NCBI RefSeq assembly: GCF_900100345.1
Contig: NZ_FMTT01000013.1
Location: 62,001 to 126,000 of the forward strand
Length of the DNA: 64,000 bases
Origin: Paenibacillus tianmuensis
Lineage (GTDB): Bacteria > Bacillota > Bacilli > Paenibacillales > NBRC-103111
Reading direction: 5' to 3'
A program made the translations under genes and the position numbers. Shown here piece by piece: positions 23,901-43,551 of this stretch. Within the stretch, counting starts at the first letter, position 1. Each line of letters opens with the position of its first letter. The notes beneath the pieces were generated by a model. That model was not told the origin of the DNA. It did not search any database and saw nothing but the letters and a program-made list of their open reading frames with translations.

Positions 23901-26900
23901 TCCGTGTCCTTCCAGACCGACCCATACCCGCTCGATTCCCGTCCAACGGTACACCGCCATGCCCAGCGCGGTCAGCAGCAGGTCGTTGATGTCAGTGTTG
24001 TAGGCATGGTGCGCCTGCTTCAGCAGCTGCTCCGTTTCCTCCCGCGTCCACTGCACCGTCACCGTTTTGCTGTCCCGCATGAGCCCGTATGCTTGCTCCT
24101 GCCCGGCTTGTTCAACATCTCGGGGGAGCGGCTTGCTTTCAGACTGTTCGAGCTGCTGCCAATACGCCCGCTCCGCCTCCAACGCCGGAATGTTCGCATA
24201 ACCCGCGAGCTGCTCCGCCCACGTCTGGAACGCATCCGTCTTGTCCGGAAGCCGGATCGCCTGTCCGCTTACGGCTTGCTCGTAGCCGTAGGCCAAATCT
24301 TCAAGCAAAATGCGCCATGATACCCCGTCAACGACCAGATGGTGAATCGCGATCAGCAGATGGTCCCCATCCGCGCAGCGGAACAGCCCCAGCTTGATAA
24401 GCGGCCCCGTACTGAGCTCGATGCTACTCTGGATCTCATTCGCTTTTGCTTCAATCGCTTGCGCGACGTTGTCGGCTGCCTTCTGGAAGTCCATGACTTC
24501 TAAAGTGTACAGCTCGCCTTCGTCGATGCCGCGAATCCAGGCCGCATAACCGCCTTCCGTCTGTCGAAATACCGTGCGCAGCGCGTCATGATGCTCCGCC
24601 AGTTTCCGCACCGCCTTCCGAAGCGCCGCTTCATCGTAGCCTTGCTCCCGGTACAGCATAACGGCTTGGTTATAGTGGTGCGGCGCAGCATTGTTTTGCC
24701 GGAAAAACCATGCTTGAATCGGTGTCAGCTTCGCCCAGCCCTTCACTTCCCCTTGGTCCGCCATACGGGTAATCGGCTTGACATGCGCGCTCAGCTCCGC
24801 AATCGCAGGGTAAGCAAACAAATGTCTCATTTCCACCTTGTACCCGGCTTGATGCAGCTTCGCCGAAACTTGAATCGCTTTGATCGAGTCGCCTCCCAGC
24901 GCAAAGAAGCGATCATTCACGCCGACCTTCTCGATCCCGAGTACCGTCTGCCAGACGGAAGCCAGCGCTTGCTCCACGGCCGTGCATGGAGCGACATAGT
25001 CCGTGTCCGCAGCCATGCTTTCCTTCGGAGCAGGAAGCGCTTTGCGGTCTACCTTCCCGTTTGGCGTCAGCGGCAGCTGCGGAAGGGGCACGAAATAGGA
25101 TGGAATCATGTACTCGGGCAGCGTTTGCGACAACGCCTTCCGTAGTTCGCCTATCGCCAGCTCGCGATCCGACACCACATACGCGCACAGCTGCTTTTGT
25201 CCGGTTTCGTCCTCCCGTGCGATGACAACTGCTTCCTGCACGGATTCCGTTTTCAGCAGCTGCACTTCCACCTCGCCCAGCTCGATCCGGTAGCCGCGGA
25301 TTTTCACCTGATCGTCGAGCCGCCCCAAATATTCGATGTTGCCATCCGGCAGCCATCTCGCCGCATCGCCCGTCCGGTACATCCGCCTGCCCGGCTCGAA
25401 CGGGTCATATACAAATTTCTCCGCGGTCAGCTCTGGACGGTTCAGGTACCCCCGCGCCACCCCGCGTCCGCCGATATACAACTCGCCCGGCACACCAGCC
25501 GGCTGTAGCGCCATGGCTGCGCTTAAAATATACATTCTCACGCCCGCGTATGGCTTGCCGATCGGCAAACTCCGGTATTCATACGGATATGGATGCGATC
25601 CGACGTCCTCCGTCTGCTGAACATAATAACTTGAATCGACGCACGCTTCCGTTACCCCGTAGCTGTTTACGATCCGCATCGATGCACCGAACCGGTCGTT
25701 TAATTGCTGAAAATCGCCTACCGGACATTGATCCGAGCCGACAATGAGCGTTTTCAGGAAGCCGATATCCCGCCCGTGCTCATACACGTCATTCATCAGC
25801 GGAATGACAAGCGCCGGGGTCGCATCGAACATCGTGACGCGGTGCTGCTGCAGCAGCCCGTAAATCGCCTCCGGGTCGTGCCGAGCGTAGCTTGGGCATA
25901 CGATGAGCTGGCCGCCATTCAGCAGTGACCGCACGATATCGGCCGTAAACACGTCGAATGAAAAGCTTGCCCACTGCAATAGCCGTACCGGTTCCTCCCG
26001 CAGCCGATACTCCTGCTTCCATGCTTCGGACAAAGCGATGACCTGCCGGTGCTCGATCATCACGCCCTTCGGTTTCCCCGTCGTTCCCGACGTATAGATG
26101 ACGTAGGCCAGATGATGCGGCTGCGCTGTGGGCACCAGGTTTGTTCCGTCGGCATCATAGGCTTCGGAAGCATCCAGAAACAACACTTTCTCCGCGGCAT
26201 CCGCCGCACGTTCCTGCAAGCGGCGATGCGTTAGCAGCAGCTGTGCCCCCGAATCGTCCAGCATGTAGCGAACCCGCTCTTCGGGGTAGTCCGGATCGAT
26301 CGGCACATAAGCGGCTCCCGCCTTCAAAATCCCGAACATCCCGATGGCCATCGCAAGCGAGCGCTCGGCCATGATGCCGACGGTCTGGTCCGGCTGCACC
26401 CCTTTGGCCCGCAAGGTGCGCGCAAGCCGATTCGCCTGCTCGTTCAGCTCGCGGTAAGTGAGCCGCTCGTCCTCGCAAATGACCGCCACTTGATCCGGCG
26501 TCCGCTCCGCCTCTTCCTCCAACAGCTGATGGATCGTCTTCTCCTGCCAGTCGCAAGATACGGAGCCGACTCCGCTATCGTCGGGTGGGCCCGTTAGCAG
26601 CGCCTTTTCCTCCGGCGTGACGATCTCGAAAGACGACAGCTTCGCCTCAGGAGCCGCCAAAATACCGTCGATGAGCTGCATGAAGTGACCGGCCATTCTC
26701 CGGACCGTATCCACGCTGTACAGCGAGCTAGCGTATTCGATGCTGCTCGTAAGCGTCCCTGCCTCATCTACCGTTATTTGGAAGCTAAGGTCGAACTTCG
26801 CCGTCTTCGACTCGATTTCATATGGCTTGAGTTCCAACCCATGTACGGTATGTTGTTCCGCCACCCCATGCTGCATGTCAAACATCGTGTCGAACAGCGC

Positions 26901-29900
26901 ATGACGGCTCAAATCCCGCGTAACGCCTACTTTCTCGACCAGCGCTTCAAACGGGTAGTCCTGATGCTCGAACGCTTGGAGCGTCATGCCCTTGACTTCC
27001 TGCAAGTAATCCAGAAACGTCTTCTCCCCGACCGGATAGCCGCGCAGCGCCAGCGTCCCGACGAACATGCCGATCAGTCCGTCCACATCCGCATGCGTTC
27101 GACCCGCCACCGGGGTGCCCACCACGATATCTTCCTGCCCCGTGTATTTGTACAGCAGCGCCGTGTAAGCCGCCAGCAGCACCATATACAAGGTCGTGCC
27201 GGTTGCGCTCGCAAGCTGCCGCAGCGCGTCGCTTCGTTGCGAACCTAGCGCGAAGGGAACAAGCCCTCCCTCAAAGCGCTGCACGGCCGGACGCGCGTAA
27301 TCCGTCGGCATATCCAGCACAGGGAGTTTGCCCTGGAACACATTCAGCCAGTACGCTTCCTGACTGCTCATTCGCTGCCCGGACAGCTCCGCCTGCTGCC
27401 ACGTCGCGTAATCCTTGTATTGGATGCGCAGCGGCGGCAGCTTTTCCCCGCCGTATAACCGGCCGAACTCGCTTATTAAAATGCCCATCGACACGCCATC
27501 CGAGACGATATGATGCATATCGAACAGCAGCAGATAACGTTCCGGCTCCTGATTCACACCAGGCTTGTCCGGATCCAACCGAATCAAGCCCACCCGCAAT
27601 AGCGGTGGCTGCCGCAAATCGAACTGCCGAACAAATTGGCGGATGCTATCCAGCGTATCCGTTTCCCCACCGTTGCTCTCGGCGTAGTCCACGGCAAACT
27701 CCACTTCGGATTCGGAGTACACCCGCTGGAACGGTTCGCCGTCTACCAGCTCAAAGCCAGTCCGCAGCGTCTCGTGACGCCGGATGAGCCCACGGAACGC
27801 CTCCTCGAACCGTTCCCGGTCCAGCGCGCCTTCAAGCAGCATTACCCCCGGCATGTTGTAGCTCGTTTCCCCGCCTTCGAACTGCTGCAAGACGTACAGC
27901 CGCTTCTGTGCCGAAGATACGGGATAATGCGACTGCACGGGGGCAACCGGTATGCCTGCAAATGTCTGCTGCCGGAGCCCTTCGATGACAGCCGCGAGCT
28001 GCTCCATGGTCGGGGCGGCGAACACGTCCTGCAGCGGCACATTTACATGCATTTCTTTTTGGATATGGGCCGCCAGCCTCATCGCTCGAAGCGAGTGACC
28101 GCCGAGCTCGAAGAAGTTATCCCTGATCCCGACGCTCGGCACCCCAAGCACCTCTTGCCACAGCTCCGCCAGCTTCGCTTCCACCGGCGTCCCCGGAGCA
28201 GCGTACTCTGCGCCTGTAGGCACGATACCCTCCGGCGCAGGCAGCGCTTGGCGGTCGATTTTGCCGTTCGGCGTCAGCGGCATCTCCTCGAGCTGAACAA
28301 AGAAAGCCGGCACCATATAGCCCGGAAGCTCCCGCGCCAGCTCGCTGCGCAGCGCCCCGGCCGCCTGCTCCCCATCAGCGGTAAAATAGGCGCACAAATA
28401 CGTTTGCCCGGTTTCGTCCGTGCGTGCCAGAACGATCGCCTCTTGTACCGCTGCCACGTTCAGCAGCTGCGCTTCAATCTCGCCGAGCTCGATGCGATAG
28501 CCGCGAATTTTGACCTGATGATCGATCCGGCCCAAATATTCGATGCTGCCGTCCGGCAGCCAGCGGGCCAAATCGCCCGTCCGGTACATCCACTGTTCAG
28601 GGGCAAACGGAACCGGCATGAATTTGTCCGCCGTCAAGTCTGGGCGGTTCAGATAGCCTCTGGCCAGACCGATACCGCTGACACAAAGCTCTCCGGCCAC
28701 GCCGATCGGAGCAAGCGCGTTATGCGCACTCAGAATGAAGACTTGATGATTCGGGATCGGCCGGCCGATGGGCACCGTCTTTTCCATCGGCGTATGGTCT
28801 GTATAAGCCCACGCGGTCGAGCAAATGGAGTCCTCGGTCGGGCCGTAGTTGTTAAAATAGCGAACGTGGTCCTTCCACTGCTGAACAAGCTCGCCGGAGG
28901 ATGCGGAACCCGCCGTAATGAGCGTTTTCAATTCGGGCATATGCTCGGGATTCAAGTAAACGGCATAGGTCGGAGGCAAAGTCGCGACCGTTATCCCGTG
29001 ATCGTGAACATATTGCTCAAACAGACGGTAATCCGCTATGACAGAAGCATCGGGCACATACAGCGCTGCTCCGGTCAATAAGCTCATAATCAACTCCGAG
29101 CACCAAGCATCGAACGAAAAGCTCGCAAACTGCACGATGCGATCCCGCTCGCTAATTTGCAAAGTGTGCTCGCAAAACAGCTTGAAGTTGCACACGCCTT
29201 GATGCTCAACCAGCACACCTTTCGGCTTGCCGGTCGTACCTGACGTATAGATGACATAAGCCAGCTGATGCGGATCGACAACCCCCCCGGGACTAGACCC
29301 GTCGCCGCTATAGCTCCGCTCGTCGTCCAGCAGAAGCAGCTCGCCGCCGTACGCCATGCGATCCCGCAAATGCGATTGCGTCAGCAGCAGCCGTACGCCG
29401 GAGTCGCCGAGCATGTAGCGGATGCGTTCCTCCGGGTATTCGGGATCGACCGGAACGTATGCGCCGCCCGCTTTCATCACGCCGAGTACGGCGGTAACCA
29501 TGTCCAGCGACCGCTCGGTCATAATGGCAACTAGTTGCTCGGCCTCCATCCCTTTGGCCAAAAGCGTGCGCGCCAGCCGGTTCGCCCGCTCGTCCAGCTC
29601 CCGGTACGTAAGCTGCCGGTCTTCAAACACAACCGCAACCTGCTCCGGCGTCAGCGCCGCTTGCCGTTCGAACAAACCGTGGATCGTCATGTCCGCAGGG
29701 TATGGCAGCGCCGTTTCGTTGAACGTCTCCAAAATTTGCGTCCGCTCATGGACAGTAAGGATGTTCAAGGACGCAAGCCTCGCTTCGGGGGTCTGAATGA
29801 TTTCTTCGATCAACTGAATAAAATGCTGCGCCATGCGCGAGATCGTTTCCCGTTTGAACAGACGGTCGCCATATTCGATGCTGAACGCAATGCCGCCCGC

Positions 29901-32900
29901 TTCCTCAGCAGCGGTAAAGGTCAAATCGAACTTCACGATAGGATGCTCGCTCTCGTGCGAACTTACGCGGAGCGATGTAAACCCGGGCGCGACTGTCTCC
30001 GTATTTTGCAAGACGAACATCGTATCGAACACCGGATTGCGGCTCATGTCCCGCTTCACGTTCAGTTTCTCCACCAGCGTTTCGAACGGGTAATCTTGAT
30101 TCTCGTACGCTCGCAGCGCCAGCTCTTTCACTTCCTGCAAGTAGTCCAAGAACGTCTTCTCGCCCACCGGATAGCTTCGCAGCGCCAGTGTTCCTGCAAA
30201 CATCCCGATCATCGGCTGCAGATCGGTATGCGGTCGGGCTGCGATCGGCGTTCCGACGATCATATCTTCCTGTCCGCTGTATTTGGACAGCAGCGTCGTA
30301 TAGGCGGCGAGCAGCACCATAAACAAGGTAGCTCCCGCCTGCGAGCCGAGCCGCTTCAACCGGTCCGCCTGCCGCGAATCGATCGTGAAGGACAGCGTAC
30401 CACCGGAAAAGCTGCGGGCAGGCGGTCTCGCATAATCGGTCGGCAACTCAAGAATCGGAAGCTCCCCGTCCAATTGCTCCAACCAATACGCTTCCTGCTT
30501 GCTCATCCGTTCACTGTCGCCATCCGCCTGCCGCCACACCGCATAATCCTTGTATTGAAGGCGCAGCGCCGGCAATTCGTTGCCCTCATACAGCTGCGCC
30601 AGCTCTTCCAGCAGGATGTTCATCGACACTCCGTCGGAAATCAGATGGTGCATATCAACCAGCAGTCGGTGCCGCTGCGGCGCTTCTTCCACCAAAGCCG
30701 CCCGCAGGAGCGGCGCTTTCCCCAGATCAAACGGCCGGATAAAACCGGCCATTGCCGCTGCGGCCTCCCCTTCTCCACTTACCCGGATGCGCTCCAGCGT
30801 AAAATCCGCCGTCTCCGCAATGCGCTGAACCGGCTCGCCGTCCGCATCCAGCTCAAAGGAGGTGCGCAGCGTGGCATGACGACGGAGCAGCCCGCGAAAC
30901 GCCGCTTCAAGCCGCTCCGCATCCAACTCGCCTTCCATCAGCAGTTCGCCCGGCATATTGTAGCTAGTCGCGACTCCTTCCAGTTGGCTCAAAATGTACA
31001 ACCGTTTTTGCGCCGAGGAAAGCGGATACGTGTCCTGCTGCCCGGCGACGGGAATGTCGGCATAAGGGCTAGGCTGTAATTGCTCAATCGCCTGCGCCAT
31101 AAGCTCAAGCGTCGGATGCTGAAACATTTGCCGCAGCGACAGCGATACGTTCAGCACCAGGTGAATTTTCGCGCCCAGCGTGGTCGCCCGCAGCGAGTGG
31201 CCGCCGAGATCGAAAAAGTTGTCCTTGACGCCAACGGCGGCGGACAGGCCGAGCACTTCTTTCCACAGCTCCGACAGCTTCGCCTCTACCGGTGTACGCG
31301 GAGCGACGTAGTCGGCATCCGCAACAAGTCCGACCTCCGGCGCCGGCAGCGCTTTGCGGTCGACTTTGCCGTTGGGCGATAGCGGAAGCTCTGCCATGAC
31401 AACGATAGCCGTCGGCACCATGTAGTCCGGCAGCTTGCGGCGCAGCTCGCTGCGCCATAGCGCTGGGAGCCCGGACGCCGCCCGCTCCTTGGCCCCCTCT
31501 TCCGGCACGGCATAAGCGACGAGCCGGATGTCCCCCGGCCTATCCTCCCGGGTCATCACGAACGCATCTTTGACGCCTGCGCATTCCCGCAGCGCCGCTT
31601 CAATTTCACCCGGCTCGATCCGGTAGCCCCGCAGCTTGACCTGATGGTCGATCCGACCCAAATACTCGATCGTTCCGTCTGGCAAATACCGCGCCAGATC
31701 CCCTGTGCGGTACAAGACCGGCGCCTGCTCGTCCCCGTACGGGTTCGCCACGAATTTGTCGGCCGTCAGCTCCGCGTCGCCGACATAGCCGCCGCCGACC
31801 TGCACCCCCGCGATGCACAGCTCACCCGGCAGCCCCATCGGCTGCAAGCCCAGCTCCCGGTTCAAAATATATACGCGCGTGCCGGCCACCGGGCGGCCGA
31901 TCGGCACCGGCTTGCCGACCAGGGACGGCATATTCGTCAAACGGCCGTACACCGTCACATCCGTACACTCCGTCGGACCGTACGTATTGACCACCTCGGC
32001 CCGGCACGCTTCCGACGCCGTCCATGCCGTAAGGCGGTCGGCCGCAATCGGCTCTCCGCCGAGGAAGACGTGCCGCAGCGTCGCGAGCGGCCCATAGCCC
32101 GCCGACGCGGTAATGTCCAGCAGCGGATAAAACGCGCTCGGCGTCCCGTTCAAGAGCGTAACCCCATGCCGCTCGATCAGCGAAGCCACTTCGGCGGCAT
32201 CATACGGACCGGACGGCAGCAGCACCAATTGGCCTCCGATGACGAGCGGGGCGAAAAAGTTCTTTTGCGTCAGGTCGAAGCTGGGCGATGAGATCATCAG
32301 CACCCGGTCCTCTTCCGTCATGCCAAATTCGCAGGTGTACCATTGAAGCAAATTTTCGAAGCCGGACCGGTAGACGCTTGCTCCTTTCGGCGTCCCGGTG
32401 GAACCGGAAGTAAAGATCACATACATCAAATGCCCGGCTCCCGCCTTGCTGTCCGGGTTATGCTCAGGCTCCGCTTCCAGTCTTGCCGTTCCGTCATCAA
32501 GACATACGACCGCCAAATCAGGCCGAACCGCGAGCCCTTCCGCCCAAGCCAGCTTCGTTACAAGCGCCTTCACCCCCGCGCGCTCCGTCATGTAGCCAAG
32601 CCGCTCCGGCGGCAGCGCTGGGTCCAACGGCACATAAGCGCCTCCGGCTTTCAGCACGGCGAGCAGCCCCGCTACCAGCTCCGGGCTGCGGTCCAAGCAG
32701 ACGCCGACCAGCGTATCCGGCCCGACGCCGAGCGTTTGCAGCCGATGCGCCAACCGGTTGGCTTGGCGGTTCAGCTCCCCGTACGACATCGTCTGCCCGC
32801 CAAACACAAGCGCCGTCCGCTCCGGCGTCCGGGCCGCCTGCTGCTCAAACCGCTCGCAGATCGTCTTAGCCTCCGGATACAGCAGCGCCGTCTCGCCGGA

Positions 32901-35900
32901 AACGCGCTGAAGCTGCCGCTTTTCCGCTTCCGTCAGCATATCGATATCGGAGAGCCGCAGTTCTTGACAATTAATGACGCCCTCCAGCACGCGGACGTAA
33001 TGCTCCGCCATCCGCCGGATCGTTTCCGGCTTGAACAGCTTCGTCGCATATTCCCAGGTGCAGGAAAGTCCTGCTTTGTCCGCCGTCACGCTTAAGGAGA
33101 AGTCAAATTTCGACACGCCGGGGTTGAACTCTTCCGATTCGAACGTCAGACCGCCGGCTTCGAGCGTGTGCACCGCTTCATTTTGCAGCATAAACATCGT
33201 GTCGAAAATCGGGTTGCGGCTCAAATCCCGCACGAATCCGAGCTTCTCCGTCAGCTCGTCAAACGGATAATCCTGATGCTCGAAGGCGAGCAGCTCCTGC
33301 CGCTTGACGTCCTGTAAAAATTCACCAAACGTTTGTTCTCGTTTCGGTCGATTCCGCATGGCGAGCGTACCGACGAACATCCCGATCACGGCTTCCGTGT
33401 CCGCATGTCTTCTGCCGGATACCGGCGTTCCGACGATGATATCGTCTTGTCCCGTATAGTTGGCGAGCAGGACACTGTACGCCGCCAGCAGCACCATATA
33501 CAGCGTCGTTCCCGACTCCTGCGCCAGCTTGTACAGCGATGCCGTCAGCCCGGGGTCCAGCTTCAGAGAAAAGGTGTCTCCTTCAAAGCTTTGCAACTGC
33601 GGGCGCGGATAATCGGTCGGCATGTTCAGCACCGGAAGCTCGCCGGCAAGCTCGCTTAACCAATACGTTTCCTGCTGCTCAAAAGCGCCCTCGGCGATCC
33701 GGTTCTGCTGCCAGACGGCATAGTCTTTGTAATGCACGTTCCTTGGCGCCAACTGCCTTCCCTGATACGTTTGAAGCAGCTCGTCCAGCAGCACGGCCAT
33801 CGAAAATCCGTCAGCCACGGCATGATGCATATCGACCAAAAGCGTAAAGCTGTCAGCTGCCAATTGCAGCAGCTTGGCGCGGAACAGCGGAGCCAGGCCG
33901 AGATCGAACGGTCGGACAAACCGCGCTCGCGCTTCATCCGCCTCTTCTTCGCTAATCCGTGTCACCTCGACGTTCAGCACAGCGTCCGGGCTAATTTTCT
34001 GAACGATCTCGCCCTCCTCCAGCGCAAAATAAGTGCGCAGCGACTCATGCCTCCCGAATACGTGCCGGAGCGCCTCGATCAAACGCGCCGTATCCAGCTC
34101 CCCTTCGATCTTAAGCTGCCCGGATATGTTATATGTCGTGCTGTCGCCTTGCTGCTGCAGCACGTACATGCGCTTTTGCGAAGACGACGCAGGGTACGCC
34201 TCCCGGCGATCCACCGGCACAATCGGCGTGTAGTCGCCCTTTTCCCCGCCCCGGATGTATTGGGCCAGCTCGTCTATCGTTTGAAGCTCGAACAAGTGAG
34301 CTAGCGGAATTTGTACATGGAATTCTTTATTCACTCTGGACAAAATCACCGTTGCTTTCAGGGAGTCGCCGCCTAGCTGGAAAAAGTTGTCGCGACGGCC
34401 CACGTTCGCCGCCCCAAGCACTTCCTTCCAGATGCGGACCAGCGTCTCCTCCGTAGCGTCTCCGCCGTGAACATCGGGGGCTGCGGTGAAGCCGCCTCCT
34501 TCCCCGGGCTCCGGCAGCTGCGACCAGTCCGGCTCTCCGCTTGGCATAAGCGGGAGGCTCGCCATCTTGACCACGTAGCGGGGCTGCGTGTAATCCGGGA
34601 GCGCTGCGCTCATCGCTTGCTTGAGCTCGGACTCCTCCCAAGGGTGCGATAGATCGGCAACGATGTATGCGGTCAAATCGGCAGTGGTGTCCGTATCTGC
34701 TTCGGAGCGAACGGTGAAGGCGCAAGTTTGAAGACCGAATGTACGACGTACGTGCTCCTCCAGCTGCTGGAGGTTGACTTGATGTCCGCGAAGCCGGACA
34801 AAACGGGACGTTTTCCCGACAGGCGTCAGCTTTCCGTCTTCCGCACAATGCACCCATTCCCCGGTGCGAAGAAAGGAGTCCCGGGAGTTCCGGGAATTCC
34901 CATTCTTAGGCCGCACGATATACAGCTCCCCCATCGTTTCTGACGGAACCGGCTGAAGGTATGTATCCAGCACGCAGGGATAGGTGCCTTCCGCATCGGC
35001 AAGGGCGGCCCACGCCGCCCATTTTTGCGCGATTTCTCCGGCGCTCAGTAAGGCAAGCCCAGAGAGGCGCAGCGTCTGCTCCTGCCCGATCGCAAGCAGC
35101 AAATGCACATAGTACCGCGCCCATATCCGGATCGTTTCGGCCGGGAACAAATCGGCGCTGTAATCGAAATTGAGCCGCAGCTCGCTTCCGATCTCGATCG
35201 CATTCAGGAAAAGCTCGTATTTGCTGTACGAAATCGGGTTCGGCAGCAGCTCCGCATCCAATCCGTGGAAGCGGAGCCTCGGCAGACGGTCCATATTGAA
35301 GACGGTCGTGATCGCCGGCAAATGCCCGAGTCCCCTTTCCGCCAAGGCGGCAAAGCTGTAGGGCTGAAACGGTTCGATCTCGTTCATTCCGTTCTTGACC
35401 GCTTGCGCATATTCGGCAAACGTAAGCTCCGGCTTGACCTCGCTCGCTACCGGCAGCAGATTGACGCAGTTGCCGATGAGCGAGAAAGCCTCCATCTGCG
35501 CTTGTCCGGCCGTCGGTATGCCTACCGTGATCTGCCGCAGCCCGGTCAGCCGGTGCAAAAACAGCTGGAACGCGGACAGCAGCGTCACGAACAAGCTGCT
35601 GCCCTGCCGCATGCTGGCCGCTTTCAACTCCTTCGCAAGCCGGCTGTCCAGCATAACCGTATGCCGGCCTCCGCGGGAGGTCGGCACCGACGTTCCCCGC
35701 CGGAGCGACGGCAGCTCCAGCACCGGAAGCCGTCTGTCGGACAAAGCCGCCCAGTACGCTGCGGCTTCCCGGCTTTCCGGCTGCTCAAGCTTATGCCGCT
35801 GCCAAGCGGCATAGTCCCGGAAAGCGGCCGGGGCAGGGAGCGCCCAGCTCTCCTGTCGTACGAGCGCGGAGTAAATGCGCTCCAGCTCTTGGATGAACAC

Positions 35901-38900
35901 GCCCATGGACCAGCCGTCGGCGATTAAATGATGAAAAGTAAACAGCGCGACATACTCGTCCCCGGATTTTTTCAGTAGACCGATGCGGAACAACGGCTCG
36001 CCCGCCGACATGCCGAACGGCGCTTCCGCATTCCGGTCCAGCCATTCACGATGGCGCTGCTCTTGCACATCCGCAGCGCAGTCGCTCACATCGAGCAGTG
36101 GAATGCGAATCGTCAGCTCGGGTGCGACAGCCTGTGTCTCCCCGTCTCCGCTCATATGGGTGCGCAGCGCTTCGTGCCGCCGGACGACGGCGTTGACCGC
36201 TTCGCTCCACGCATCGATGCGCAGAGGCCCGCGCAGCCGAAGCAGCGCGGTCTCGTGCAGCGATTGCGCTTCGCTCCGGCCGGACATCGAAGCGAACCAC
36301 AGCTGCTTTTGCTCCGGCGTCAAGGAAATGACCGCATCAGGCCCTTTATCCCGCGATTCCGGTGCAGGCAAGGATCGCTTCCCCGGATCGCTGCCGTCCG
36401 GAGGCACATCCGGCAAGAAGCCGCCGTCGCGCAGCTCCCGGATGCTGTCTTTCACCGCCTGTACGATCCGCCGGATATCCGCTTCCGAGTGGGCCGTCGA
36501 CAGGAAGCAGTTGCGGCCCTCCCAAATATAGACCCCTTTATCGAGCATATGGTAGAAGAACAGCTCCAAATCGCCTTTGAGCACGAAGCGGAACAAAGAA
36601 CCGAAGTGAACCACTTTCATTGGTACGTTGCCTTGGACGAAATAGTCGTTCAGCTCCGCCGCCAAGGCTGCCGTTCTGGCATTCAACTCGGCCTGCAGCT
36701 TCCCTCCACTTTGCTCAAGCTTCTCCAGCACGGCCAGAGCCGCCGCCAGCGCCAACGGATGATGGCAGAAGGTGCCGGCAACGAACGTCCGGCGCTGCTC
36801 CTGCTGCGGATACGAATCGTCGCCGAAGCGCCAGAAGCCGCCGTCGATCCCGTCTATAAATGCCGCCTTCCCACCTACGATGCCGATCGGCATGCCGCCT
36901 CCGATGACTTTGCCGTAGGTCACAAGATCGGCCTGGATACCGAACCACGCCTGTGCGCCTCCGGGATGCACGCGGAAGCCCGTAATCACCTCGTCGAAAA
37001 TAAACGCGGTGCCCGATTGCGCCGTAATCCGGCGGATCTCCGCCAGAAACGCCTGCGGCTGGAAGTCGGGCCGCCGGCTTTGCACCGGTTCCACGAGCAC
37101 GGCTGCTAGCTCATGCGCATGCGCGCGAAGATAAGCCAGCGCCTCTTCCGTGCCGTAATTCAGCACGACCACATCGTCGACCATATGCTGCAGGATGCCC
37201 GGCGCCAAAGGCACGGAGTGCTCTTGATCCGCTCCGGAGCTGCCGAGCGCCAGCACGCCGTCGAACGTGCCGTGATACGATCCGGCAAAAAGCACGACCT
37301 TCGCCCGTCCGGTTGCCGCCCGGGCCAGACGCAGCGCCACCATCACGGCCTCCGTGCCGGTGTTGAACAACGCGATGCGCTCGACACCCGTCATTTTGCT
37401 TATGCTTTCGGCTACCTGTCCGGCCAGATTGGACATCGGACCGACGCACATGCCGTTTTGCAGCCCGGCTTCAATGCTCTCCCGGATGAAATCCGGGTTG
37501 TGTCCGAACAAATTGACACCGAAGCCCATGGTCAGATCGATATATTCGTTGCCGTCCAGATCCCAGATTTTGGAGCCTTCGGCGCGTTCCGCCACGATCT
37601 GGTACACCATTTCCTTCAACACCGGCCGGAAACCCGCCACATTGCGGTTGTTTGCATAGACGGGGCGGTATTGCTGCGTGTATTCCTTCGTCCGGCGGGT
37701 GCGGGCCGTATACCGTTCGATCAAATCGCGCAGATGCTGCTCTTGCCGGAACGGCAGCGATTCGCGCACCTTCACGTCAATCGTCTTGAAGGGCGTGAAC
37801 GGCTTCGCCTCGGCGCTGTCCGGATGGCGGACAGCGGTAACGCTTGATGCGGCCGCCACTTCCCTGCTCGCATCGGCATAAACGAAGCTGTCCGGCCGGG
37901 CAGCGGAGATAGGCTCGGGCGCAGGCTGCCGGTTCAGGACGGCCGGTACCGGAGCCGGATACTGCCGCAGCACGTCGAGCTGTTGGGACATCAGGCGGAG
38001 CTGCTGCTCCATGATGCGTTCCGCCCCGGTAGAGGCGACGCTACCCGGAAGCGGCAAATACGATTCCGCTGCGACCGCAGGAGCCTCCACGTAGTAGCCG
38101 GGCGCAGGTGCGGGTACTACCGGCAAAATCGGAATCTGGCTTGACGGTTGAGCTGCCAGAACCGGCACATTCCCCTCCTCCTGGACTTGCGGGGCAAGAG
38201 GCTGTGTCGGCGCCGTATGCTGCGCGATGTAATCCGTCAGCAGCTCCAGATTCGTTAACGATTCGAAGAAGCTGCTCATCGGAATATCCAGTCCGAACGT
38301 ATCTTTAATGCCGTGCCGCACCTGAGTTAAGATGATCGAATCCAGTCCGAGCTCCAGAAAGTGCGTTTGCGGTTGAAGCTCGTCCATGTCAAGCTGCGAT
38401 ACGTTACGGATCATCTGCATCAGGGAACTTGCGACCGTTTGCCGATGGAGATCGGAAACGGCCCCTGGGCCGGAATGGTCGTACATCAATTGAACACGCT
38501 CCTCTGCTATCTCAGCTATCGCTGCCAAGGCTGTCGTCTTGACGCTGCGTTCAGGCCGTACCGCCGGCACATCGATCCAGCATCTTTTCCGTTCGAACGG
38601 GTACGTAGGCAGCGCCACTTTCGGATAACGCCGATCCGCATACACCGAGCTCCAGTCGATCTTGGCTCCCTGTACATAATGCAAGGCGGTTTGCGTCACT
38701 CCCTCCTCCGTATCCAGACGCAGGGGCACCGCGTCCCTTTCCACGGACGGATTCGCAACCGTTCCACCGGCTCCGCTCCGATATACGCCTTCCTCCGCCA
38801 AGCCTTCGTTATGCAGCCGAATCACTTTCGCCCGCAGCTCGGAGGCTCCGGCAGCGGTCACCGCAATCCGGTGCGTCAAGTGGCTCCGCCCCGTATTCGC

Positions 38901-41900
38901 CGTAAAGCAAACGCTGCGCATATCCAGCTCCGGCCGGCGTTCGAACAGCTCCGCATACTGCTCGATCATTGTCCGCAGCGCGGTTTCGCTGCGCGCCGAC
39001 AAGGTTAACAGCAGCGGCCCGCTTTCGGGTGAATTCGGCAGAACCGGCGCCGTATCGTCAGGAACATACTCTTCCAGTACCATATGGCAGTTCGTCCCGC
39101 TGAATCCGAACGAGCTGATGCCGCATCTTCTCGGAATCCCGTTCGGCTGCCAGTCTGTCAGTTCCGTGACGGGGTAAACCGGCGATTCCTCAAAGCTGAT
39201 CTTGCTATTCGGCTGACGGAAATGCACCAAAGGGGCAATTTGCCGATGCCGAAGCGACAGCACCGCTTTGATCAAACCGGCGATCCCCGCTGCTTCGTAC
39301 AGATGCCCGATGTTCGTTTTCACCGTGCTGATGGCGCAAAACTGCTTGCGCTGTGTTTGTTTGCGGAACGCTTTCATCATGCCGTCGATTTCGACGGGAT
39401 CGCCCAGCTTCGTCCCTGTCCCGTGCGCTTCGATGTAAGTGATCGTTTCCGGATCGATGCGCGCGCTGCGCCAAGCCTGCGCGATCACTTCCGCTTGCGA
39501 CGAGGCGTTCGGAGCGGAGATGCCGACCGTGCTTCCGTCCTGATTGATCGCGGTCCCTTTAATCACGGCAAGAATGTTGTCCCCGTCCTGCACGGCTTTG
39601 CGCAGAGGCTTCAGGAGCACGGCCCCGACCCCCTCACCCCAGCCCGTTCCGTCCGAATTGTCATCGAACGCTCTGGCCCGGTCGTCGGAAGATTCCATGC
39701 CGATGCCCGCCTTGTGCGGCAGCAGAATGGTCTTGACGCCGCCCGCGAGCGCCATCTCGCAATCCCCGCCGAGAATCGCCTGGCAGGCGAGATGCACCGC
39801 GACGAGCGAAGACGAGCAAGCGGTGTCGACCGTGACCGCAGGCCCTTTCAAATCAAGCAGATAAGCGATGCGGCTCGAAATGATCGACGGCAGGTTGCCG
39901 AGCACAAAATGAGGCAGCGTTTCCGGCGCGACTTCCGTCAACAAGCGCTCGTATTCGAAGCTCGTTTTGGAAAATCCGACGTATACGCCGACTTTTTTGC
40001 CGGACAGCGGGGTTCCGCCATATCCCGCGTCTTCGAGAGCGCTCCACGCCGTCTGGAGAAAAAGACGCTGGTTCGGGTCCATCAGCGAAGCTTCGCGTGG
40101 CGTCAGCCGGAAGAACGAGTAGTCGAACGTATCGATCTCGTCTAAATAACCGCCTTCCACGGATTGAAGATTCCGGTCCCCGGTATACAGATGGGCCATA
40201 TAGGACGCGGCATCCTTCATTCTTTTTTCGTTAAAGGGCCTTATACAATCTTTGCCTTCCGCCAGATTCGCCCAGAACTGCTCCAGCGTATCCGCTTGGG
40301 GAAACTTGCCCGCCATGCCGATGATCGCAATATCGCGGTCCGCCGGGCTGGCCGCATCGGGGTCATGCTCCGCAGACGCTTCCTGCTCTCCTTCGGCGAT
40401 ATAAGCGGCCAGCTTCGCGATGGTGGGATACGAAAAGAAGTCGGTCACCGCAATGTTCACGCCGAGCTGGCTTTCCAGCTGCTCCGCCATTTGCGTCAGC
40501 TGCAACGAATTCGCGCCGAGATCAAAGTAGCTTTCGTCGGTGCCGATGGCATCGGTCTGCAAAATTTGCTTGCAGATGTCCAGCAGCTTTCGCTCCGCTT
40601 CGTTCTGCGGGATAGCGACGGGCCTGGCCTCTTTCTCCTTCCGCAGCAGCTCTGCCAGCTGCTCCGAGACTGCTTGAAACTGCCCGGCTTCATACTCCTG
40701 CGCTAGCTTGAAACGCTGCACCTTGCCGCTCGTCGTTTTGGGGATACGCCGGATCGGCACGATATCGTGAAGCTCCCAGCCGCCCCGATAATTCAAGTGC
40801 TTCCTTAGCCTTTGGGCGACCGGAACGAAATCCTCGACCTTCTTCGTATGCATAACGAAGACGACAATGCGGTCCTGTCCTACCCCGGCGTCATGAACGC
40901 CGCACACCGCCACCTTGCCAAGCTCCACGCCGTCGACTTCCTCGGCGACCCGCTCGATATCGTGAGGATAAACGTTCTGGCCGTTCACGAAAATAATATC
41001 CTTCGCCCGTCCGGTGATGACCAGCCGCCCGCTGCGCATAAAGCCCAGATCGCCGGTCCTGAGCCAGCCGTCCGCCGTCTTCACTTTGGCCGTCGCTTGC
41101 GGGTTGTTGTAATAGCCGGAAGTCACATTTTTTCCGATGATTTGAATGTGTCCGATGACATTGTCGGCCAGTACCGCGTCGTCATCGTCGCAGATGCGGA
41201 TATGGCAGCTTGCGAGCGGATAACCGACATCGACGAAGGTTACGCAGCGATTGTCGGAAGGCTCGACGGGCACGACCGCCTTGCCGATATTCAACTGCTC
41301 CCGATTCAAGTACATTGGCAAATACATTTCTTCGAGCGGTGGATGGGAAACGCCGACGCAGGCTTCCGCCATCCCATAGACGCACAGCATCGCCGATCTC
41401 CGGAGTCCGTGCTGCTCCATAGCATCAAGGAATTGATCGCAAACTTCGGTAGAAATCGGCTCGGCGCCGTTGTAAACGATGCGGATATACGACAAGTCCC
41501 AGTCTACGGCCGTCTCCGGTTTATATTGAGCCAGGAAAAATTTATAGCCGAAGTTCGGAGAGCAGATCTGGGTCACCCGGTGCTCGGACGCCTTTTTCAA
41601 CCATAAGGTCGGACGCCGGATAAACAGCGCCGTCGGCATAATGAACTGGTTGGCATTGGCGATGACGCAAGTCAAGTGAAAAGCGATCAAGCCTAAATCA
41701 TGCGTCAGAGGCATCCAGCCGAGGTAGCTGTCCTGCTCGTCCATGCGCGCCCCCGATGCGCCATCGCGAATATTGTGGACCAGATTTTCATGCGTCAGCA
41801 TAACCCCTTTCGGGTCGCCCGTCGACCCGGAGGAGAACTGGATGAAGGCAAGCTGCTCCGCTTTGAGCGGCATTATATCCCCTCTATTCCGAGAGGAATA

Positions 41901-42347
41901 ATTAAGTTTATCCGTAAATAAAACCGCTTGCTTCATCTCTTCGAACACATTTTGCAGTTCGTTTTGCCCGGCGTATTTCTCCAGATAGTCCAACGCTTTG
42001 GCATCGCTTATCAGATAAGGACGATTCAGCGTCCTCCAAATTTTGAACAGCTTGATTTTGTGCTCGTCGTTACTGCCTACCGTGACGGGCACCGGTACGA
42101 TGCCTCCAAGCAGGCAGCCCCAGAACACCGACAAAAATGTGCGGTTATCGTCAATCTGCATCAGCAATTCATCCCCGGGTTTCATGCCGCTGCTCTGCAG
42201 CTCATACAGCACGATTAGCGCCCGGTCGAGCAAGGTTCCGTAAGACTCGTACTCTTCCTGCCGGTCTCCGGAAATATAAGTGATGCCTCTTGTTGCCAGC
42301 CTGCTTCGGTCTTGCAGGACATTGACTAACGTTTGAAACTGATTCAT
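20922..42347 (-). CDS. Giant iturin-type hybrid PKS-NRPS lipopeptide synthase (about 7141 aa)
   Basis: Domains in order, with approximate residues: acyl-AMP ligase 10-560 (SSGSTGDPKG); ACP1 590-655 (LGANSL); KS 680-1095 (DTACSSS, EAHGTGT, NIGHL) with the KS-AT linker but no AT; ACP2 1300-1370 (GLDSI); PLP aminotransferase 1560-1960 (YGKVIGGG); C1 (HHLIADG); A1 remnant 2460-2625; T1; C2-A2-T2; C3-A3-T3; C4-A4-T4; E (GLEGHGRE, TVGWFTSEYP); C5 (HQIVMDG) 6340-6780; T5; TE 6920-7141 (GYSLGG, GGH). The front half matches MycA/ItuA and builds a beta-amino fatty acid. Pocket codes read by eye: A2 DLKNFGTDV (unassigned), A3 DASTIANIC (Tyr/Phe-like), A4 DVADIGSVD (perhaps a basic residue, followed by E, so D-form). 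Modules 1 and 5 lack a working A domain. GGAGG lies just before ATGATG; the second ATG (42347) has the better spacing. It is co-transcribed with the malonyltransferase 28 bases upstream. Confidence 0.95.
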   Translation of the reverse strand: MNQFQTLVNVLQDRSRLATRGITYISGDRQEEYESYGTLLDRALIVLYELQSSGMKPGDELLMQIDDNRTFLSVFWGCLLGGIVPVPVTVGSNDEHKIKLFKIWRTLNRPYLISDAKALDYLEKYAGQNELQNVFEEMKQAVLFTDKLNYSSRNRGDIMPLKAEQLAFIQFSSGSTGDPKGVMLTHENLVHNIRDGASGARMDEQDSYLGWMPLTHDLGLIAFHLTCVIANANQFIMPTALFIRRPTLWLKKASEHRVTQICSPNFGYKFFLAQYKPETAVDWDLSYIRIVYNGAEPISTEVCDQFLDAMEQHGLRRSAMLCVYGMAEACVGVSHPPLEEMYLPMYLNREQLNIGKAVVPVEPSDNRCVTFVDVGYPLASCHIRICDDDDAVLADNVIGHIQIIGKNVTSGYYNNPQATAKVKTADGWLRTGDLGFMRSGRLVITGRAKDIIFVNGQNVYPHDIERVAEEVDGVELGKVAVCGVHDAGVGQDRIVVFVMHTKKVEDFVPVAQRLRKHLNYRGGWELHDIVPIRRIPKTTSGKVQRFKLAQEYEAGQFQAVSEQLAELLRKEKEARPVAIPQNEAERKLLDICKQILQTDAIGTDESYFDLGANSLQLTQMAEQLESQLGVNIAVTDFFSYPTIAKLAAYIAEGEQEASAEHDPDAASPADRDIAIIGMAGKFPQADTLEQFWANLAEGKDCIRPFNEKRMKDAASYMAHLYTGDRNLQSVEGGYLDEIDTFDYSFFRLTPREASLMDPNQRLFLQTAWSALEDAGYGGTPLSGKKVGVYVGFSKTSFEYERLLTEVAPETLPHFVLGNLPSIISSRIAYLLDLKGPAVTVDTACSSSLVAVHLACQAILGGDCEMALAGGVKTILLPHKAGIGMESSDDRARAFDDNSDGTGWGEGVGAVLLKPLRKAVQDGDNILAVIKGTAINQDGSTVGISAPNASSQAEVIAQAWRSARIDPETITYIEAHGTGTKLGDPVEIDGMMKAFRKQTQRKQFCAISTVKTNIGHLYEAAGIAGLIKAVLSLRHRQIAPLVHFRQPNSKISFEESPVYPVTELTDWQPNGIPRRCGISSFGFSGTNCHMVLEEYVPDDTAPVLPNSPESGPLLLTLSARSETALRTMIEQYAELFERRPELDMRSVCFTANTGRSHLTHRIAVTAAGASELRAKVIRLHNEGLAEEGVYRSGAGGTVANPSVERDAVPLRLDTEEGVTQTALHYVQGAKIDWSSVYADRRYPKVALPTYPFERKRCWIDVPAVRPERSVKTTALAAIAEIAEERVQLMYDHSGPGAVSDLHRQTVASSLMQMIRNVSQLDMDELQPQTHFLELGLDSIILTQVRHGIKDTFGLDIPMSSFFESLTNLELLTDYIAQHTAPTQPLAPQVQEEGNVPVLAAQPSSQIPILPVVPAPAPGYYVEAPAVAAESYLPLPGSVASTGAERIMEQQLRLMSQQLDVLRQYPAPVPAVLNRQPAPEPISAARPDSFVYADASREVAAASSVTAVRHPDSAEAKPFTPFKTIDVKVRESLPFRQEQHLRDLIERYTARTRRTKEYTQQYRPVYANNRNVAGFRPVLKEMVYQIVAERAEGSKIWDLDGNEYIDLTMGFGVNLFGHNPDFIRESIEAGLQNGMCVGPMSNLAGQVAESISKMTGVERIALFNTGTEAVMVALRLARAATGRAKVVLFAGSYHGTFDGVLALGSSGADQEHSVPLAPGILQHMVDDVVVLNYGTEEALAYLRAHAHELAAVLVEPVQSRRPDFQPQAFLAEIRRITAQSGTAFIFDEVITGFRVHPGGAQAWFGIQADLVTYGKVIGGGMPIGIVGGKAAFIDGIDGGFWRFGDDSYPQQEQRRTFVAGTFCHHPLALAAALAVLEKLEQSGGKLQAELNARTAALAAELNDYFVQGNVPMKVVHFGSLFRFVLKGDLELFFYHMLDKGVYIWEGRNCFLSTAHSEADIRRIVQAVKDSIRELRDGGFLPDVPPDGSDPGKRSLPAPESRDKGPDAVISLTPEQKQLWFASMSGRSEAQSLHETALLRLRGPLRIDAWSEAVNAVVRRHEALRTHMSGDGETQAVAPELTIRIPLLDVSDCAADVQEQRHREWLDRNAEAPFGMSAGEPLFRIGLLKKSGDEYVALFTFHHLIADGWSMGVFIQELERIYSALVRQESWALPAPAAFRDYAAWQRHKLEQPESREAAAYWAALSDRRLPVLELPSLRRGTSVPTSRGGRHTVMLDSRLAKELKAASMRQGSSLFVTLLSAFQLFLHRLTGLRQITVGIPTAGQAQMEAFSLIGNCVNLLPVASEVKPELTFAEYAQAVKNGMNEIEPFQPYSFAALAERGLGHLPAITTVFNMDRLPRLRFHGLDAELLPNPISYSKYELFLNAIEIGSELRLNFDYSADLFPAETIRIWARYYVHLLLAIGQEQTLRLSGLALLSAGEIAQKWAAWAALADAEGTYPCVLDTYLQPVPSETMGELYIVRPKNGNSRNSRDSFLRTGEWVHCAEDGKLTPVGKTSRFVRLRGHQVNLQQLEEHVRRTFGLQTCAFTVRSEADTDTTADLTAYIVADLSHPWEESELKQAMSAALPDYTQPRYVVKMASLPLMPSGEPDWSQLPEPGEGGGFTAAPDVHGGDATEETLVRIWKEVLGAANVGRRDNFFQLGGDSLKATVILSRVNKEFHVQIPLAHLFELQTIDELAQYIRGGEKGDYTPIVPVDRREAYPASSSQKRMYVLQQQGDSTTYNISGQLKIEGELDTARLIEALRHVFGRHESLRTYFALEEGEIVQKISPDAVLNVEVTRISEEEADEARARFVRPFDLGLAPLFRAKLLQLAADSFTLLVDMHHAVADGFSMAVLLDELLQTYQGRQLAPRNVHYKDYAVWQQNRIAEGAFEQQETYWLSELAGELPVLNMPTDYPRPQLQSFEGDTFSLKLDPGLTASLYKLAQESGTTLYMVLLAAYSVLLANYTGQDDIIVGTPVSGRRHADTEAVIGMFVGTLAMRNRPKREQTFGEFLQDVKRQELLAFEHQDYPFDELTEKLGFVRDLSRNPIFDTMFMLQNEAVHTLEAGGLTFESEEFNPGVSKFDFSLSVTADKAGLSCTWEYATKLFKPETIRRMAEHYVRVLEGVINCQELRLSDIDMLTEAEKRQLQRVSGETALLYPEAKTICERFEQQAARTPERTALVFGGQTMSYGELNRQANRLAHRLQTLGVGPDTLVGVCLDRSPELVAGLLAVLKAGGAYVPLDPALPPERLGYMTERAGVKALVTKLAWAEGLAVRPDLAVVCLDDGTARLEAEPEHNPDSKAGAGHLMYVIFTSGSTGTPKGASVYRSGFENLLQWYTCEFGMTEEDRVLMISSPSFDLTQKNFFAPLVIGGQLVLLPSGPYDAAEVASLIERHGVTLLNGTPSAFYPLLDITASAGYGPLATLRHVFLGGEPIAADRLTAWTASEACRAEVVNTYGPTECTDVTVYGRLTNMPSLVGKPVPIGRPVAGTRVYILNRELGLQPMGLPGELCIAGVQVGGGYVGDAELTADKFVANPYGDEQAPVLYRTGDLARYLPDGTIEYLGRIDHQVKLRGYRIEPGEIEAALRECAGVKDAFVMTREDRPGDIRLVAYAVPEEGAKERAASGLPALWRSELRRKLPDYMVPTAIVVMAELPLSPNGKVDRKALPAPEVGLVADADYVAPRTPVEAKLSELWKEVLGLSAAVGVKDNFFDLGGHSLRATTLGAKIHLVLNVSLSLRQMFQHPTLELMAQAIEQLQPSPYADIPVAGQQDTYPLSSAQKRLYILSQLEGVATSYNMPGELLMEGELDAERLEAAFRGLLRRHATLRTSFELDADGEPVQRIAETADFTLERIRVSGEGEAAAAMAGFIRPFDLGKAPLLRAALVEEAPQRHRLLVDMHHLISDGVSMNILLEELAQLYEGNELPALRLQYKDYAVWRQADGDSERMSKQEAYWLEQLDGELPILELPTDYARPPARSFSGGTLSFTIDSRQADRLKRLGSQAGATLFMVLLAAYTTLLSKYSGQEDMIVGTPIAARPHTDLQPMIGMFAGTLALRSYPVGEKTFLDYLQEVKELALRAYENQDYPFETLVEKLNVKRDMSRNPVFDTMFVLQNTETVAPGFTSLRVSSHESEHPIVKFDLTFTAAEEAGGIAFSIEYGDRLFKRETISRMAQHFIQLIEEIIQTPEARLASLNILTVHERTQILETFNETALPYPADMTIHGLFERQAALTPEQVAVVFEDRQLTYRELDERANRLARTLLAKGMEAEQLVAIMTERSLDMVTAVLGVMKAGGAYVPVDPEYPEERIRYMLGDSGVRLLLTQSHLRDRMAYGGELLLLDDERSYSGDGSSPGGVVDPHQLAYVIYTSGTTGKPKGVLVEHQGVCNFKLFCEHTLQISERDRIVQFASFSFDAWCSELIMSLLTGAALYVPDASVIADYRLFEQYVHDHGITVATLPPTYAVYLNPEHMPELKTLITAGSASSGELVQQWKDHVRYFNNYGPTEDSICSTAWAYTDHTPMEKTVPIGRPIPNHQVFILSAHNALAPIGVAGELCVSGIGLARGYLNRPDLTADKFMPVPFAPEQWMYRTGDLARWLPDGSIEYLGRIDHQVKIRGYRIELGEIEAQLLNVAAVQEAIVLARTDETGQTYLCAYFTADGEQAAGALRSELARELPGYMVPAFFVQLEEMPLTPNGKIDRQALPAPEGIVPTGAEYAAPGTPVEAKLAELWQEVLGVPSVGIRDNFFELGGHSLRAMRLAAHIQKEMHVNVPLQDVFAAPTMEQLAAVIEGLRQQTFAGIPVAPVQSHYPVSSAQKRLYVLQQFEGGETSYNMPGVMLLEGALDRERFEEAFRGLIRRHETLRTGFELVDGEPFQRVYSESEVEFAVDYAESNGGETDTLDSIRQFVRQFDLRQPPLLRVGLIRLDPDKPGVNQEPERYLLLFDMHHIVSDGVSMGILISEFGRLYGGEKLPPLRIQYKDYATWQQAELSGQRMSSQEAYWLNVFQGKLPVLDMPTDYARPAVQRFEGGLVPFALGSQRSDALRQLASATGTTLYMVLLAAYTALLYKYTGQEDIVVGTPVAGRTHADVDGLIGMFVGTLALRGYPVGEKTFLDYLQEVKGMTLQAFEHQDYPFEALVEKVGVTRDLSRHALFDTMFDMQHGVAEQHTVHGLELKPYEIESKTAKFDLSFQITVDEAGTLTSSIEYASSLYSVDTVRRMAGHFMQLIDGILAAPEAKLSSFEIVTPEEKALLTGPPDDSGVGSVSCDWQEKTIHQLLEEEAERTPDQVAVICEDERLTYRELNEQANRLARTLRAKGVQPDQTVGIMAERSLAMAIGMFGILKAGAAYVPIDPDYPEERVRYMLDDSGAQLLLTHRRLQERAADAAEKVLFLDASEAYDADGTNLVPTAQPHHLAYVIYTSGTTGKPKGVMIEHRQVIALSEAWKQEYRLREEPVRLLQWASFSFDVFTADIVRSLLNGGQLIVCPSYARHDPEAIYGLLQQHRVTMFDATPALVIPLMNDVYEHGRDIGFLKTLIVGSDQCPVGDFQQLNDRFGASMRIVNSYGVTEACVDSSYYVQQTEDVGSHPYPYEYRSLPIGKPYAGVRMYILSAAMALQPAGVPGELYIGGRGVARGYLNRPELTAEKFVYDPFEPGRRMYRTGDAARWLPDGNIEYLGRLDDQVKIRGYRIELGEVEVQLLKTESVQEAVVIAREDETGQKQLCAYVVSDRELAIGELRKALSQTLPEYMIPSYFVPLPQLPLTPNGKVDRKALPAPKESMAADTDYVAPCTAVEQALASVWQTVLGIEKVGVNDRFFALGGDSIKAIQVSAKLHQAGYKVEMRHLFAYPAIAELSAHVKPITRMADQGEVKGWAKLTPIQAWFFRQNNAAPHHYNQAVMLYREQGYDEAALRKAVRKLAEHHDALRTVFRQTEGGYAAWIRGIDEGELYTLEVMDFQKAADNVAQAIEAKANEIQSSIELSTGPLIKLGLFRCADGDHLLIAIHHLVVDGVSWRILLEDLAYGYEQAVSGQAIRLPDKTDAFQTWAEQLAGYANIPALEAERAYWQQLEQSESKPLPRDVEQAGQEQAYGLMRDSKTVTVQWTREETEQLLKQAHHAYNTDINDLLLTALGMAVYRWTGIERVWVGLEGHGREAVLPDIDIARTVGWFTSEYPVVLEMGAGGGPGDSDTLAYRIKRVKDSLRQIPNKGIGYGILKYLSEASEDARYAAKPEISFNYLGQFDQDLTQNALQVSPFACGSEISGQTERSHALDISGSIAGGELALTVSYSGKQYRRETMERLAGLLHASLQDIIAHCVAKERPELTPSDVVFKGLAVTERLRRIGEIESVYALTPLQQGMLYHRLLNPESEAYFEQTAFTLCGSLDIRAFKQSLDVVVQRHDALRTNFYSGWNGQPLQVVYRNKPAGFVYEDVRGWKESEQEAHIRALTKTDKLRGFELSEEALLRVSILRTGDETYRFLWSFHQIVMDGRDTGRIIEEVFAVYSAYRKQARPELGAVKPYRRYIEWLEGQDLAAASAYWSHYLAGYRHQAVPPRVQAQGQQGAGCAAERLTSSLGKRLTRELRNTAKQHQVTVNTLLQTAWGLLLQAYNGTDDVVFGTVVPVRPALVPGMETMIGVRSNTIPVRIRSGAGATVADVMRSVQEQALSSEKHAMHPLYEIQALSAPKQQLINHILVFETDSPSSVAAEAAAKAAGLEMSGFRTEGQTSYDLTVIMQPGNDMRIRFDYNAQVYEREVMERLQGHWMRILKQLAANPDVRVQELQLLSPAEEEQCLAGLVGTEAELLQGAIVHSSSTEDAANALAEYVAPRTPVEAKLAALWQEVLGAPRIGVRNRFFELGGHSIKAMQLTEKVNTVMGAELSLRAVIASPTIEEMAALLSSGQVQDDGDGPMKLNERGRMNVFCFPPSAGYGLVYNEMARMLEDQYVVYAFDFIEGWRDEEELLNRYVDAIVSVQREAPYVLLGYSLGGSLAYQVAKTMERRGYAVSDILLLDADRRDGTKKLSGEELERGVDAMLEIVSERNASFLANRADWEKARSKILAYGTYSGQLINDGAVRANLHAFITEMEAARAEDWNEATTEEVVEYALIGGHLDIFEPANIEHNVHAIRLVLQDIVRDKTLAADSVR

Positions 42348-42375: not shown

Positions 42376-43551
42376 TTAAGCGCGCTCTTTTCCTTCCGGC
42401 CCCCGCTTGGTTTGCAGCACAAGGCACATGAAATCCAAAGCTTCCTTTCTTTGCTCACGGGCCTGAGCTCCTGTGATCCTGCTTTCTTTCGCGCTTTGCA
42501 GCATTTCCTTCAGCTTGCGCACAGGCTGGACGACGCCCGCTTGGTATTCCTCCTCGTTCCAATTGGCATTAGGGGCAGCTACGGCCTCTGACAGACAGCC
42601 GGCAATAAAATCGTGAAGCGGAACCTCCCGGGCCAAGCGCTCTGCCTCCTGCTCCCGCTCGAAAACAAACGTCCGCGGCTTGTCCGTCATATCATTCGCC
42701 AAATTTTTCAAGACGGAACGGGGACCTAATTCGACGGCCCACTCTACCTTCCGCTCCTTCAAATAACGCATCGATTGCAGCCACATGACCGGATGCGTCA
42801 TCTGTAAAATCAAGCCGTCCCGGATTTGCTCCGCATTAGCGTAAGGCAGCGCCGTCACGTTGGATATAACCGGCCATTGGCTTTCGCGGAACGTATACTT
42901 CCGCAGGATGTCGGATAGACGGTCCGCAGCTTGTGACATCAGCGGACTGTGAAACGGGCCGCTGACCTGCAAACGGGTAACTTGAGCGCCTCTTAGCTCC
43001 GCTGCAATCGTTACCCGGGCCAGGGCTGCCCGATGACCCGACAGCACGTACTGGCTCTCGGAATTGCAGCAGGCGATGACAACAGGCTGTTCAGACGACG
43101 AATGCTTGCCGCACAATGCCTCCAGCGCCTCAAGCTCCACGCCCCGCACGGCGGCCATTTCGCCCAGACCTGCATCGGCGGCCTCCTGCATCACGATCCC
43201 CCGCTGCTGCACCAGACGCAAGGCGTCCGCAAACGAAAGAACGCCGCTGCTCACCAGCGCGGTGTATTCCCCCAGACTATGTCCGGCGGAGAACCGGGGA
43301 ACGATGCCAATCTCTTGCCTGTACTGTTCCAAGGCCATGACGCTGACCGTCAGCAGAGCCGGCTGCGCATACGCCGTTCTCGACAGCTGCTCGGCGCTGC
43401 CTTCAGTGCATATCGATTTCAAATCATACCCCAGGATATCATTCGCTTCCTCGAACAATTGGTCGGCACCTTGAAATCTCTTGGACCAGACCTTGCCCAT
43501 TCCTTCATATTGTGATCCTTGACCTGGAAATAATAAGGCGATACGCTTCAT
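42376..43551 (-). CDS. Trans-acting malonyl-CoA:ACP transacylase (FenF/ItuD type, 391 aa)
   Basis: LLFPGQGSQYEGMG at the N-terminus, the nucleophile Ser92 in GHSLGE, and the catalytic His in GPFHSPLM mark a FabD-family malonyltransferase. The C-terminal tail of about 80 residues beyond the FabD core is typical of FenF/ItuD/BmyD. The synthase downstream has a KS with no AT, so this enzyme should load malonate onto its ACP for the single chain extension that makes the beta-keto (then beta-amino) fatty acid. The start at 43551 has AAAGGGG 6 bases upstream; the longer frame by nine codons is disfavoured. It is the first gene of the two-gene synthase operon. Confidence 0.93.
   Translation of the reverse strand: MKRIALLFPGQGSQYEGMGKVWSKRFQGADQLFEEANDILGYDLKSICTEGSAEQLSRTAYAQPALLTVSVMALEQYRQEIGIVPRFSAGHSLGEYTALVSSGVLSFADALRLVQQRGIVMQEAADAGLGEMAAVRGVELEALEALCGKHSSSEQPVVIACCNSESQYVLSGHRAALARVTIAAELRGAQVTRLQVSGPFHSPLMSQAADRLSDILRKYTFRESQWPVISNVTALPYANAEQIRDGLILQMTHPVMWLQSMRYLKERKVEWAVELGPRSVLKNLANDMTDKPRTFVFEREQEAERLAREVPLHDFIAGCLSEAVAAPNANWNEEEYQAGVVQPVRKLKEMLQSAKESRITGAQAREQRKEALDFMCLVLQTKRGPEGKERA

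Follow-up and report, generated by a model that had tools for sequence, protein, structure and literature searches.

What does the first peptide module of a lipopeptide synthetase do when most of its adenylation (A) domain is gone? The question is raised by a gene of Paenibacillus tianmuensis in the 64,000-nucleotide stretch of DNA analysed here (the window), an ORF of 7,146 amino acids at 42362-20922 on the minus strand, as are all features located below. Domain parsing with Pfam gives its order as FAAL-ACP-KS-ACP-AMT-C1-[A remnant]-T1-C2-A2-T2-C3-A3-T3-C4-A4-T4-E-C5-T5-TE. The FAAL-ACP1-KS-ACP2 loading and extension part (38208..42344) has no AT domain, and a FenF/ItuD-like malonyl transacylase (42376..43578; Pfam Acyl_transf_1) is expected to serve ACP2 in trans. 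The AMT aminotransferase domain (36408..37670; Pfam Aminotran_3), the proposed maker of a beta-aminoacyl thioester on ACP2, is followed by the condensation domain C1 (35034..36332; Pfam PF00668 at C52:97034-98332), with an intact HHLIADG. Next come the vestigial A1 (34509..35030, residues about 2445-2618), the carrier domain T1 (34245..34451; Pfam PF00550) and a second condensation domain, C2 (32910..34202; HHAVADG). Only three intact amino acid A domains are present.

The first-pass annotation had described A1 as a fragment, and the motifs that it quoted are all in place: GELYIV (A6) from 34931, LRTGEWV (A7) at 34871-34851, RLRGHQVN (A8) at 34796-34773 and the degenerate A10, PSGEPDWSQLP, at 34544-34512, followed by the intact LGGDSL of T1 from 34376. 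Motifs A1-A5 and the A10 lysine are missing between C1 and T1, where there is just the A6-A10 remnant, with A7, A8 and A10 eroded. The Pfam alignment that had been suggested as a check, run on residues 2430-2722, gave PP-binding (6e-18) without AMP-binding (PF00501), and AMP-binding_C reached only a sub-threshold match in these residues (16.0 bits versus a cut-off of 24.5). Against NCBIfam models, the stretch from C1 to T1 corresponds to the final, C-terminal third of an A domain and then a carrier, and a profile built from the remnant and T1 hits the same regions of solved NRPSs, e.g., LgrA. A Foldseek search with the predicted structure of the remnant stretch (AlphaFold, pLDDT 77.6) likewise found the C-terminal part of an A domain and then a carrier (E = 3e-20). 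A larger AlphaFold model, of C1, the remnant and T1 together, was poor (pLDDT 63) and was left out of the argument. Given the motifs, the Pfam result and the profile and structure matches, the fragment is real.

The loss of A1 is also conserved. The same remnant occurs in five related genomes (P. ehimensis, P. elgii, two labelled P. tyrfis, and Paenibacillus sp. A3), and the region of the remnant plus T1 is 82-90% identical in these five other species. An intact A1 in close relatives had been named as something that would overturn the observation, but none of them has one. Because the P. elgii/ehimensis/tyrfis group shares the remnant, an assembly error or a strain-specific deletion is ruled out. 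The AMT domain is 93-96% identical to those of the five relatives, the HHxxxDG motif of C1 is invariant among the orthologues, and the transacylase gene lies directly upstream of the synthetase in all five (82-85% identity). In more distant Paenibacillus, the remnant region falls to 43-48% identity. Values of dN/dS are well below 1 for every synthetase domain: C1 and T1 (0.216 and 0.120) compare with C2 and T2 (0.202 and 0.124), and the A1 remnant, at 0.265, is somewhat more relaxed, yet still under purifying selection, so a role for it beyond that of a linker is possible.

The synthetase ORF is uninterrupted, at 7,133-7,165 amino acids, in four of the five relatives. In P. ehimensis (G004; L052), a frame break within C4, at about base 29359-29437 of the merged region, splits the ORF downstream of the remnant, which may be a draft error or a real mutation.

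Two homologous systems indicate what such a module contributes. In one Bacillus genome (G343), a complete operon has seven A domains and the order AMT-C-T-C-A(Asn), with a 35-amino-acid linker in the first C-T. Its pocket codes are DLTKIGEVCK (Asn), DALSVGEVVK (Tyr), Asn again, DAQDLGVVSK (Gln), DVQFIAHV (Pro), Asn and DVWHFSLIDK (Ser), and epimerases follow residues 2, 3 and 6. Iturin A is L-Asn-D-Tyr-D-Asn-L-Gln-L-Pro-D-Asn-L-Ser (PMC3039948). The operon carries the codes of iturin A, with seven A domains for seven residues, and its first C-T unit has no residue in that product. The earlier statement that the corresponding module of iturin-type enzymes activates Asn thus has to be corrected: in this Bacillus operon the C-T after AMT lacks an A domain, and it is the following C-A-T that supplies Asn1, an arrangement also described for ItuA (PMC11751314).

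The second system is that of paenilipoheptin, whose published cluster fits that of two genomes in our set, G087 and G089 (PMC11959601). After the remnant module, both have codes for Ser, a Dab/Lys type, Trp, a Val/Ala type, Phe, Tyr and Glu, and an epimerase domain follows each of residues 1-4. The product, by NMR, begins 3-amino-10-methyldodecanoyl-Ser (PMC11959601). Since the beta-amino fatty acid sits directly on Ser1, the remnant module adds no residue.

The window synthetase is homologous to both systems. It shares with ItuA/MycA/BmyA the order FAAL-ACP-KS-ACP-AMT-C-T-C-A-T, a FenF-type transacylase in trans, and a C-T without an A domain after AMT in which the C1 and T1 motifs are intact. 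However, the A domain is traceless there (the 35-amino-acid linker), whereas the window keeps a remnant of about 160-175 amino acids, and seven residues follow there as against three intact A domains in the window. Paenilipoheptin PhnC-E, whose product is known, shares the C-dA-T module, its A6-A10 remnant being about 160 amino acids long, and falls in the same clade as the window in a tree of AMT plus C1. In contrast to the window, it has seven intact A domains over three proteins, and its remnants have clearly diverged from the window's. Locillomycin also starts with an A-less C-T unit (T-C-T-C-A-T-C), but its published order has no aminotransferase, and it has iterative modules and proposed domain skipping (PMC8949500).

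To place the module more broadly, we searched with the AMT domain, fetched the loci and parsed their domains, which gave 55 usable AMT-C...T stretches. The A core is missing in 50 of these, and five have an intact A1. A remnant of A6-A10 like that in the window is found in 29 stretches, just two of which keep the A10 lysine; eight are more eroded, with 70-226 amino acids from C1 to T1 and no recognisable A part; and in 13 the remnant is gone, leaving 32-55 amino acids between C1 and T1. Throughout the A-less modules the neighbouring domains keep their motifs, HHxxxDG of C1 in 49/50 and the T1 serine motif GG[DNQH]S in 50/50. In the AMT plus C1 tree, the window clade (20 remnant rows) and the iturin-operon clade belong to one group; no intact A1 occurs in this group, and the full-loss rows nest beside remnant rows within it. 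As this is a quick tree in which several branches are long and forks stay open, its count of losses is approximate.

We consider it very probable that C1-(A1 remnant)-T1 is a relay module that does not extend the chain. FAAL would load the fatty acid onto ACP1, KS would extend it on ACP2 with malonyl from the FenF-like transacylase, and AMT would make the beta-amino thioester. C1 would then transfer this beta-aminoacyl chain from ACP2 onto the T1 thiol, which would carry no amino acid, and C2 would join the chain from T1 to the A2-activated residue on T2. The A1 remnant would activate nothing and probably does no more than separate C1 from T1 as a folded spacer. For ItuA, the 2025 paper PMC11751314 has the first C domain loading the first PCP with the beta-amino fatty acid and the second C domain joining it to Asn, and we infer by analogy that the window enzyme performs the same C1 transfer onto T1. 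That a C domain would perform a pure transthioesterification is a model put forward in the literature. The window module corresponds to its homologues by domain order and tree position, and on this basis their behaviour is expected to extend to it.

It had also been proposed that the chain skips the module, in which case C2 would take the beta-aminoacyl chain straight from ACP2, and C1, the remnant and T1 would be merely a spacer. We regard this as unlikely. The half of the proposal that holds is that no residue is added, as in the homologous systems, and a review describes skipping in the locillomycin line, [ACS-T-KAS][T-C-T-C-A-T-C], where one of the two C domains is used optionally (PMC8949500). 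C1 and T1 might also be retained for structural reasons. However, their motifs and dN/dS are typical of working domains, and domains that go unused, which serve as internal controls, lose their motifs. In the window this is C5, in the terminal C5-T5-TE (20943..23318), which has FHQIVMDG; the second His of HHxxxDG is gone in 6/6 orthologues (HQ, DQ or CQ). In paenilipoheptin it is the E domain of the Ser module of G087, with DPxxxD. Because C1 and T1 keep their motifs and evolve like C2 and T2, while unused C5 and E domains decay, and because the ItuA paper describes the same transfer, we prefer passage of the chain through T1.

Loading of T1 with an amino acid in trans seems to us very improbable, whichever enzyme is taken as the donor: A2 of the synthetase itself, a C-A-T protein of the left operon, or the stand-alone ligase (11538-13076). 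Missing or dead A domains are known to be complemented in trans, as for syringomycin and albicidin (PMC8949500), and the ligase gene is on the same contig as the synthetase in all six species. Yet neither paenilipoheptin nor iturin A gains a residue from the homologous modules, and the ligase is missing from the two paenilipoheptin genomes, which have the same module. The first-pass suggestion of the ligase or C-A-T proteins as the source is therefore not supported. The candidate ligase is not conserved with the module as a dedicated stand-alone A or A-T protein of the SyrE/SyrB1 or albicidin type would be. In P. ehimensis, P. elgii and the two P. tyrfis genomes, it is outside the roughly 15-20 kb covered downstream of the synthetase, which makes the left operon look like a separate cluster next door. 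That the truncation kills the assembly line and the gene is decaying, to which the frame break of P. ehimensis, real or not, might be fitted, has a negligible probability, as the ORF is full-length in 5/6 species, dN/dS is well below 1 and the same module occurs in gene clusters with isolated products.

If T1 relays the chain, the product would consist of the beta-amino fatty acid, the A2 residue, the A3 residue and the D-form of the A4 residue, and TE would release or cyclise it. A2 (31335..32849; DLKNFGTDVK), A3 (28227..29684; DASTIANICK) and A4 (25017..26516; DVADLVSVDK, followed by T4 and E) would specify predicted residues 1, 2 and 3, respectively, codes that differ from the paenilipoheptin order Ser-Dab/Lys-Trp-Val/Ala-Phe-Tyr-Glu. 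The predicted product, a beta-amino fatty acid with three residues, gave no match to a known compound. The window has the FAAL-ACP-KS-ACP-AMT start, the adjoining trans malonyl transacylase and, after AMT and before the first C-A-T, the C-T unit lacking an A domain that together mark iturinic (beta-amino fatty acid) synthetases. Since three A domains are intact rather than seven, it is not an iturin synthetase in the strict sense, a term for the makers of lipoheptapeptides. The arrangement is already known from synthetases of beta-amino lipopeptides, and the form seen here, like that of paenilipoheptin, is transitional and still bears a remnant. The new elements are modest: the graded series of remnants and the synthetase with three intact A domains. 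We give about even chances to the full reading: that this is an undescribed short beta-amino lipopeptide of three residues, probably cyclised, made with a working relay and a dead A-less module, and that the graded remnants record the change from C-A-T to a C-T relay, the A core being lost ancestrally and the remnant several times.

For annotation, a first module that follows an aminotransferase and has no A domain can mislead automatic pipelines; it is best taken to contribute no residue, so that product prediction starts one module later. The graded series, from an intact A1 through a C-terminal remnant and more eroded forms to complete loss, may trace how a relay module arose, and the A-less modules offer natural sets of C domains for probing plain thioester transfer by condensation domains.

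Several further observations concern the window and the surveyed loci. The final module, C5-T5-TE, was overlooked in the first-pass annotation and has neither an A domain nor an A remnant. Among the orthologues, no other domain varies nearly as much as A4 (75% identity in the core, dN/dS 0.45), and its pocket code is either DVADLVSVDK or DMKD[VI]GVVDK; the variability together with the code change suggests recombination or a subdomain swap. At 2-15455 (-), the left operon of the window is an NRPS operon encoding C-A-T proteins, an acyl-CoA dehydrogenase, an asparagine synthase, a radical SAM protein, the stand-alone ligase and ETF/ferredoxin-like proteins.

Stand-alone 534-amino-acid AMP-binding proteins near the AMT genes of some relatives were set aside, their code lacking the Asp typical of amino acid A domains. 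In P. terrae, an ORF (L063:7919-20332) starts T-C-dA-T-C without AMT, resembling the published locillomycin start, and its remnant region shares 47% identity with that of the window. Four other loci (L146, L147, L151 and L153; G120, G133, G169 and G134) have the same relay module and then three A domains only, with Gly-like, Dab-like and Val-like codes; by their codes these are short three-residue lines and not paenilipoheptin lines. Finally, one locus (L141 in G091, reverse strand 7650-18978) carries FAAL-T-KS / T-AMT-C-T-C-A / T-TE on several frames, and its A-less module, single A domain and TE possibly make a beta-amino fatty acid with one residue.
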